Assembly: GCA_003153505.1 (NCBI GenBank)
Contig: PLZA01000052.1
Span: 1 to 64,000, forward strand
DNA from: Candidatus Dormiibacterota bacterium
GTDB lineage: Bacteria; Chloroflexota; Dormibacteria; Aeolococcales; Aeolococcaceae
DNA: 64,000 nucleotides
Reading direction: 5' to 3'
Shown here: one piece after another, positions 2,928 to 10,981 of the stretch
Layout of the letters: every line of letters begins with the position of its first letter
Numbering within the stretch: position 1 is the first letter of the stretch
The notes under the pieces: generated by a model
What the model was told of the DNA's origin: nothing
Seen by the model: only the letters and a program-made list of their open reading frames with translations
The model's database searches: none
Program-made: the position numbers and the translations under genes

Positions 2928-3035
2928 AAAAAAACCTCCCGGGCTTGTGGTCCGGGAGGCTTCCCAACGTGGGCGCGTGTGCCCCTACGTCCGGAAACCT
3001 CCGCGGGGCATGATCATGGTTGCGAGCACGACTCT
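2928..3035 (-). promoter_or_regulatory. Candidate attenuator / SD-sequestering leader of thrC
   Basis: Perfect 8-bp stem CCTCCCGG/CCGGGAGG (2935-2942/2952-2959) followed by T7 and the ATG; competing 10-bp pairing between 2993-3002 and 2955-2964. Confidence 0.6.
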
Positions 3036-3117
3036 TGGTGTCAGCACAGTGCGGGCATGCTAACACGGACACCGCGCACGGTCGCAACTCGCATCGGTGA
3101 CGGCTTGTCGCCAACGC

Positions 3118-9955: not shown

Positions 9956-10981
9956 GTGGCCCAGTCGAAACCGCTTCGCGCCGCCGTCGTCGGCTCCACC
10001 GGGTACATCGGCATGCAATGCACCGCTCTGCTCGCCGGTCATCCCGATGTGGAGCTGACACGCGTCCTCGGCCGCAGCAGCGCCGGGAGCCGCTACTGCG
10101 ACGTGGTTCCGGGAAGCGGGGTCGAGATGATCATCGAGGACAGCCTCGATCCCGGTGCGGCGGACGTGATCATGGCGGCGCTGCCCCACACAGTCGCGGC
10201 GTCATTGGCGCCCGGCTGGCTCGCGGCAGGCGCAACCGTCATCGACTGCTCCGCGGATTTCCGCCTGCGCGATGCAGCCGCGTATCAGCAGTGGTACGGC
10301 GTTGCGCATCCGTCACCGGACCTCCTCGGAGAGGCTGTGTACGCGATGGTCGAGCTCGAGCGCGCGCACCTCGCATCCGCCAATCTCATCGCGGTGCCGG
10401 GCTGCTATCCGACGGCCGCGCTGCTCGCCTGCGTGCCCGCGCTCCGTGCAGGGTTGATCGAACCGGACATCGTCGTCGACGCCAAGAGCGGGGTCAGCGG
10501 TGCCGGTCGCGAGGCGAAGGTCGCCAATCTCTTCGCGGAAGTCAACGAGTCGGTGCACGCCTATGGCGTCGCTGGACACCGCCACAAGTCCGAGATGCTC
10601 CAGCAGCTGCGTGTGGCCGCCGACGGTGATGTCCGGTTCACGTTCGTGCCCCATCTGATCCCGATGACCCGCGGCATCCTCGCCACCGCCTATCTGCGCC
10701 CGCGCCCTGGCGTGACCGAGACGCAGTTCCGCGACGTGTACGCGGCGTTCTGCGCCACCAGCCCGTTCCTCGACCACGTCGACAGGCCTCCGGCGACCAA
10801 GAGCGTGACCGGCACCAACCGCGCTGCGATCCACGCCGGATGGCAGGACGGCACGGCGGTTGTCACCGTGGCGATCGACAACCTCGGCAAGGGTGGCGGC
10901 GGGCAGGCTGTCCACGCCATGAACGTTCGCTTCGGGTTCGACGAGACGGCCGGGCTGGAGTCCCGCGTCCTGTGGCCGTGA
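9956..10981 (+). CDS. argC: N-acetyl-gamma-glutamyl-phosphate reductase
   Basis: VVGSTGYIGMQ, VPGCYPTAALLA, SGVSGAGR; GTG start. Confidence 0.95.
   Translation: MAQSKPLRAAVVGSTGYIGMQCTALLAGHPDVELTRVLGRSSAGSRYCDVVPGSGVEMIIEDSLDPGAADVIMAALPHTVAASLAPGWLAAGATVIDCSADFRLRDAAAYQQWYGVAHPSPDLLGEAVYAMVELERAHLASANLIAVPGCYPTAALLACVPALRAGLIEPDIVVDAKSGVSGAGREAKVANLFAEVNESVHAYGVAGHRHKSEMLQQLRVAADGDVRFTFVPHLIPMTRGILATAYLRPRPGVTETQFRDVYAAFCATSPFLDHVDRPPATKSVTGTNRAAIHAGWQDGTAVVTVAIDNLGKGGGGQAVHAMNVRFGFDETAGLESRVLWP

Follow-up and report, generated by a model that had tools for sequence, protein, structure and literature searches.

A predicted leader-peptide attenuator with methionine control codons ahead of a second threonine synthase-type gene in Dormibacterota

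In an uncultured soil bacterium of the Dormibacterota, a threonine synthase-type gene is preceded by a leader that can form two mutually exclusive hairpins. The question raised by this locus is how such a leader might act and which amino acid it might sense. The window, meaning the whole stretch of 64,000 nucleotides that was analyzed, carries the gene, here called thrC2, on the minus strand (1641 to 2927), where it encodes 428 amino acids with an N-terminal Cys-rich ribbon. Along the minus strand from 3065 to 2925, the order of parts is a -10 element, 9 nt, an open reading frame (ORF) starting with GTG, Met-Ile-Met codons, the antiterminator 5' arm, TAG, a spacer, the antiterminator 3' arm with the terminator, seven T's, and ATG. 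The terminator consists, by direct reading, of the 5' arm CCTCCCGG (2952 to 2959), the 9-nt loop ACCACAAGC, and the 3' arm CCGGGAGG (segment 4; 2935 to 2942). The U-tract TTTTTTT (2928 to 2934) follows, with the thrC2 ATG directly after it at 2927. The Shine-Dalgarno sequence GGGAGG (2940 to 2935) lies inside the 3' arm, 7 nt ahead of the start codon. The competing antiterminator pairs the 5' arm GGAGGTTTCC (segment 2; 2993 to 3002), which lies within the leader ORF, with the 3' arm GGAAGCCTCC (segment 3; 2955 to 2964) across 10 bp with one G-U. It is extended by an inner helix of GACGT (2987 to 2991), which reaches into the stop codon, and ACGTT (2966 to 2970). The sequence-only reading had described both helices, the U-tract, and a short ORF, ATGATCATG...TAG (3017 to 2985), and all of these lie exactly where it had placed them. 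A scan for sigma-70 promoters and terminators gave no match here, owing to its loop limit of 8 nt against the actual 9 nt and to the promoter type, and folding of the single leader against shuffled sequences was weak (z of -1.75).

The short ORF of the earlier reading does exist and is conserved, but it is unlikely to start at 3017. The more likely start is the in-frame GTG at 3047, which stands 9 nt downstream of the -10 box TAGCAT (3062 to 3057) within a predicted extended -10 promoter element, TGTTAGCAT (3057 to 3065; TGnTA(G/C)(G/C)AT). The resulting ORF of 20 codons, MLTPRVVLATMIMPRGGFRT (2985 to 3047, with the TAG stop at 2987 to 2985), is predicted to be leaderless. It was also correctly noted that runs of Thr or Ile codons are absent; what was missed is that the Met codons at 3017 and 3011, in ATG-ATC-ATG (Met-Ile-Met; 3009 to 3017), can themselves be a control run.

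Leaders of this kind were collected ahead of 14 thrC2 genes from six Dormibacterota genera, all of them in metagenome-assembled genomes (MAGs); sequences within genera are related, so the counts overstate independence. Named matches of the leader pattern belong to Candidatus Dormibacterota MAGs (Dormiibacterota in the records), to names placed therein, and to one MAG labelled Chloroflexi. A match in Tidjanibacter was rejected as chance, the other parts being absent. The parts, namely promoter, in-frame start, Met run, arms, stop codon, U-tract, and gene start codon, are present and arranged alike in all 14 leaders. The -10 element occupies the same site in each, with an in-frame ATG or GTG 7 to 9 nt past it, and the leader ORF is therefore probably leaderless, with polymerase predicted to start at or about 2 nt from the start codon. 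The leader peptides are 18 to 22 amino acids long, vary in length by whole codons, and have a single stop position, which a conserved Thr codon adjoins. Each leader has two to four Met codons just ahead of the antiterminator arm, and this run is constant, while the upstream residues vary. The first internal Met stands 15 to 18 nt ahead of GGAGG in all eight lineages tested (binomial P of 2e-14). The third bases of GGA GGT TTC are unchanged in 14/14 leaders, and the codons beside them vary freely, from Arg to Ser or Cys before the stretch and among Arg, Pro, and Ser after its Phe. This stretch is therefore constrained as RNA.

Both helices are conserved in the same set. Terminator pairs are kept at 100%, with the 5' arm unchanged and the loop differing in length and sequence, and 6 to 8 T's follow in 14/14 leaders. 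Antiterminator pairs are kept at 94.8%, and two genera show two-sided changes in the inner helix. The CCTCC of the 3' arm is common with the terminator, and the variable half of that arm still pairs in nearly all sequences. RNAalifold recovers the antiterminator helix unaided. Covariation is slight in the thrC2 leaders alone because their arms hardly vary.

A broader comparison came from a covariance model, R1, which was built from the thrC2 leaders and run against 110 genomes of the class. On the proper strand it matched about once per genome. Besides recovering the 14 thrC2 leaders, it identified a single locus in each of 29 family f4 genomes and another in genome G013. Fifteen of the f4 loci were read, and all 15 lie directly upstream of the citramalate synthase gene cimA, two of which were checked by profile (TIGR00977; 634 and 652 bits). 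The cimA leaders share with the thrC2 leaders the promoter spacing, the ORF ending (RGGPPT before the stop, and variants), the arms, the U-tract, and the ATG. However, they have Ile where the thrC2 leaders have Met, as in MRNRRAIAIEIIRGGPPT and MRSWIAIAIEIIRGGPPT. Met makes up 23/116 codons in thrC2 leaders versus 1/185 in cimA leaders (Fisher P of 1e-9), and Ile 6/116 versus 57/185 (Fisher P of 2e-8). The G013 locus (G013:C16:37095-37179) lies ahead of a small ACT-type ORF and an ilvB-type gene, both named by eye from sequence, and its leader, MCSTRIRGIVGPGGSRT, has Ile and Val codons. A joint model run over 40 genomes found no additional genes above noise. For the cimA copy, the control amino acid is clearly Ile, the pathway product. 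On this comparative evidence, the leaders represent one predicted ribosome-mediated attenuator chassis whose control codons can be swapped: Met at thrC2, Ile at cimA, and Ile-Val at ilv. The control codons track the gene, and by that logic the window switch would answer to methionine.

With all three gene types aligned together, covariation of the antiterminator became evident: 21 two-sided changes versus 9.5 +/- 2.2 in shuffled alignments, 0/500 of which reach 21. The signal exceeds that of every slid version. Every thrC2 and cimA leader read has 6 to 8 consecutive T's straight after the G+C stem. The proposal of two mutually exclusive hairpins, one of them terminating transcription and hiding the Shine-Dalgarno sequence, is thus borne out by conserved arms, U-tract, and Shine-Dalgarno sequence, by the covarying antiterminator, and by the homologous switch at cimA. 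The comparison across related thrC leaders, set beforehand as the test that could refute it, left it standing. A further suggestion, that translation of the short ORF over the antiterminator arm would work the switch, finds support in the conserved reading frame and in the matching Ile codons of the cimA homologue.

The earlier reading had taken the target to be thrC. The family assignment holds, as the window gene scores 262 bits on TIGR00260 (threonine synthase; cut-off, 167), which places its product in the threonine synthase family. However, it is a second thrC and not the copy in the hom-thrC-thrB operon, which is present in the same genome. In a tree, the window gene falls in a class-wide clade, thrC2, separate from the hom-linked clade (support, 100/99). 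In the sister family f3, the thrC2 ortholog stands behind a SAM-I riboswitch (RF00162) in 11/11 genomes with a full match, in an operon that appears by eye to run thrC2-asd-lysC-thrB. The window leader lacks this element. Indeed, Rfam searches of the window and relatives matched no leader except through SAM-I in f3: the window gave no family match, in agreement with the earlier statement that it has no T-box core, and no SAM aptamer reached the threshold used, either in it or in the seven genomes of its genus. With SAM-I in f3 and a Met-codon leader here, two unrelated devices tie thrC2 to methionine or SAM. In one genome, two SAM-I copies with equal scores lie about 450 bases apart before a single thrC2 (G067:C297:9397-9500 and 9957-10060).

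From these observations we infer that the leader is translated, that it senses Met, that Met scarcity turns thrC2 on, and that the action is mainly at transcription. Transcription would begin at the leader start codon or no more than about 2 nt from it. When charged Met-tRNA is scarce, a ribosome would pause on the run's first Met codon, leaving GGAGGTTTCC downstream unmasked to pair with GGAAGCCTCC as the latter emerges; thrC2 would then be transcribed with its Shine-Dalgarno sequence accessible. When Met is plentiful, the ribosome would reach the UAG in the antiterminator helix and mask GGAGGTTTCC, CCTCCCGG would pair with CCGGGAGG, and transcription would end at the U-tract; in any read-through message, the Shine-Dalgarno sequence would be locked in the terminator stem. 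We consider it probable, with some room for doubt, that the leader is a ribosome-mediated transcription attenuator of this kind, with a probably leaderless ORF and with thrC2 on when Met is scarce. Charging of Met-tRNA is most likely what the window copy senses.

Folding with a masking ribosome agrees in part. In genus g1, the antiterminator forms with the A site at or before codon 10 in most leaders, L004 being mixed at early codons; the outcome is mixed at the first Met, and the terminator forms from the second Met, or codon 13, on. With the A site at the stop, which sits in the inner antiterminator helix, the terminator probability is 1.00 in 14/14 leaders. In several other genera, equilibrium folding favors the terminator at whatever ribosome position, and the attenuator model therefore needs co-transcriptional folding, which is assumed.

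Stalling on the second or third Met of the run would mask the arm, and the geometry thus leaves the direction of the response not certain. The same attenuator could then work in the opposite sense, with Met-starved ribosomes covering the arm, thrC2 turned off, and phosphohomoserine spared for Met synthesis. This would fit an ordinary threonine synthase, and masked folding in genus g1 does give terminator probabilities of 0.84 to 1.0 with the A site at codons 12 to 13. We think it unlikely, since a starved ribosome would meet a hungry codon already at the start of the run, a position at which the arm remains at least partly exposed in g1, and since replete ribosomes also mask the arm at the stop, so that starvation would add little repression. 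The cimA copies moreover imply the usual direction, and the SAM-I class on the f3 ortholog normally switches genes on at low SAM. Induction by Met scarcity thus stays the probable direction. A threonine-starvation model was rejected: the conserved Thr codon lies beside the stop, and a stall there would mask the arm and switch the gene off.

Two further readings give the parts other roles. If MxMxRGG itself stalled the ribosome on a metabolite, the codons would merely resemble a control run; in most leaders of both genes, RGG does come after the control codons, and genera g12 and g13 have a different leader that ends MRMRRGGLTAPHA. Such an arrest peptide is quite improbable: three leaders have Cys or Ser in place of the Arg, and some cimA leaders have Trp or Leu there; the residues ahead of RGG are Met or Ile according to the gene; those past GG are variable; and the third bases of GGA GGT TTC are fixed in the 14 thrC2 leaders, an RNA constraint. 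No peptide conservation was found beyond what the RNA demands; only the Met or Ile run and the RNA-constrained codons are kept, and their neighbors vary. The placement of GGGAGG within the stem also suits a switch at translation only, in which the hairpin just hides the Shine-Dalgarno sequence and the U-run is a spacer. That reading appears highly improbable, for a spacer need not consist of T, yet the T run is there after the G+C stem in every leader read.

Met sensing before a threonine synthase-type gene is odd, unless the product serves Met supply. In 21 genomes, models for MetX, MetA, and HcyBio found no match while control models did, and PF01053 enzymes are present, which leaves an apparent gap where homoserine would be activated for methionine synthesis. 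Our hypothesis is that thrC2 may serve methionine synthesis, the link to that pathway resting on the f3 SAM-I riboswitch. The fuller proposal, a true Met-tRNA-sensing attenuator in a codon-exchanging chassis with thrC2 as an O-phosphohomoserine-using enzyme of methionine synthesis rather than a threonine synthase, is tentative, and we regard it as rather doubtful. A second thrC that may answer to methionine, in a phylum with no recognizable MetX or MetA, makes this metabolic gap testable, and the codon swap between genes on one RNA chassis is a natural experiment that reveals the amino acid signal of each gene.

Known control of methionine genes otherwise relies mainly on SAM riboswitches, T-boxes, or repressors, and the leader offers a clear comparative case of Met-codon attenuation with a proper antiterminator and terminator. 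Like the trp, his, thr, leu, and ilv attenuators, it has a short ORF with a control-codon run, a stop in the antiterminator arm, and an antiterminator exclusive with an intrinsic terminator. It differs from them in its predicted leaderless ORF, in Met as the control amino acid, in a terminator stem that also holds the Shine-Dalgarno sequence of the structural gene, and in a U-run that abuts the start codon. Leaderless leader peptides, including LeuL and TrpL, occur in Actinobacteria (PMC8079986), for which one study reports that it found neither a conserved RNA element ahead of Met or Thr operons nor a Met or Thr attenuator (PMC1262725). An earlier predicted Met-containing leader, metL before metNIQ in Streptomyces lividans, differs in its gene, its scattered Met codons, and its lack of a clear terminator (PMC8079986). 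The Mycobacterium tuberculosis ilvB1 upstream ORF offers a model of the same logic (PMC13236596). The Cys-responsive leaderless short ORFs of mycobacteria (Canestrari et al. 2020, as cited in PMC9031893) are, as far as that citation describes them, alike in that the downstream gene is controlled by a leaderless ORF carrying a run of codons for a single amino acid; they differ in the use of cysteine, in being described as translation attenuation, and in their RNA. Nothing closer was found in the literature on Dormibacterota attenuators and Met-codon leader peptides, in which subscription journals were thinly covered. We regard the leader-peptide attenuator, on comparative grounds, as real.

Other leaders precede thrC2 elsewhere in the class. 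R1 reported neither the different leaderless ORF of genera g12 and g13, which ends MRMRRGG..., nor the leaders of family f2 genera g15, g16, and g19. In the latter, a different predicted leaderless ORF of 44 to 60 codons lies upstream of thrC2 in 10/10 genomes, starting 6 to 8 nt after a -10-like hexamer and with the tail MRxRAAGDTxTxx before the stop, or close to it. These leaders have a conserved hairpin, CTAGCGC/GCGCTAG, along with a CGGGGGA/TCCCCCG helix, with no terminator seen and no Rfam match, and their thrC2 proteins are more distant than other thrC2. A third leader type (L017-L020, L022, L046) has a leaderless ORF ending AGMRMRRGGLTAPHA before the stop, or nearly so, and an internal G+C hairpin. 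In family f4, thrC2 itself (L027-L031, L052-L067) looks leaderless, starting a few nucleotides after a -10 box of the TCTAAACTGA type, without a leader switch.
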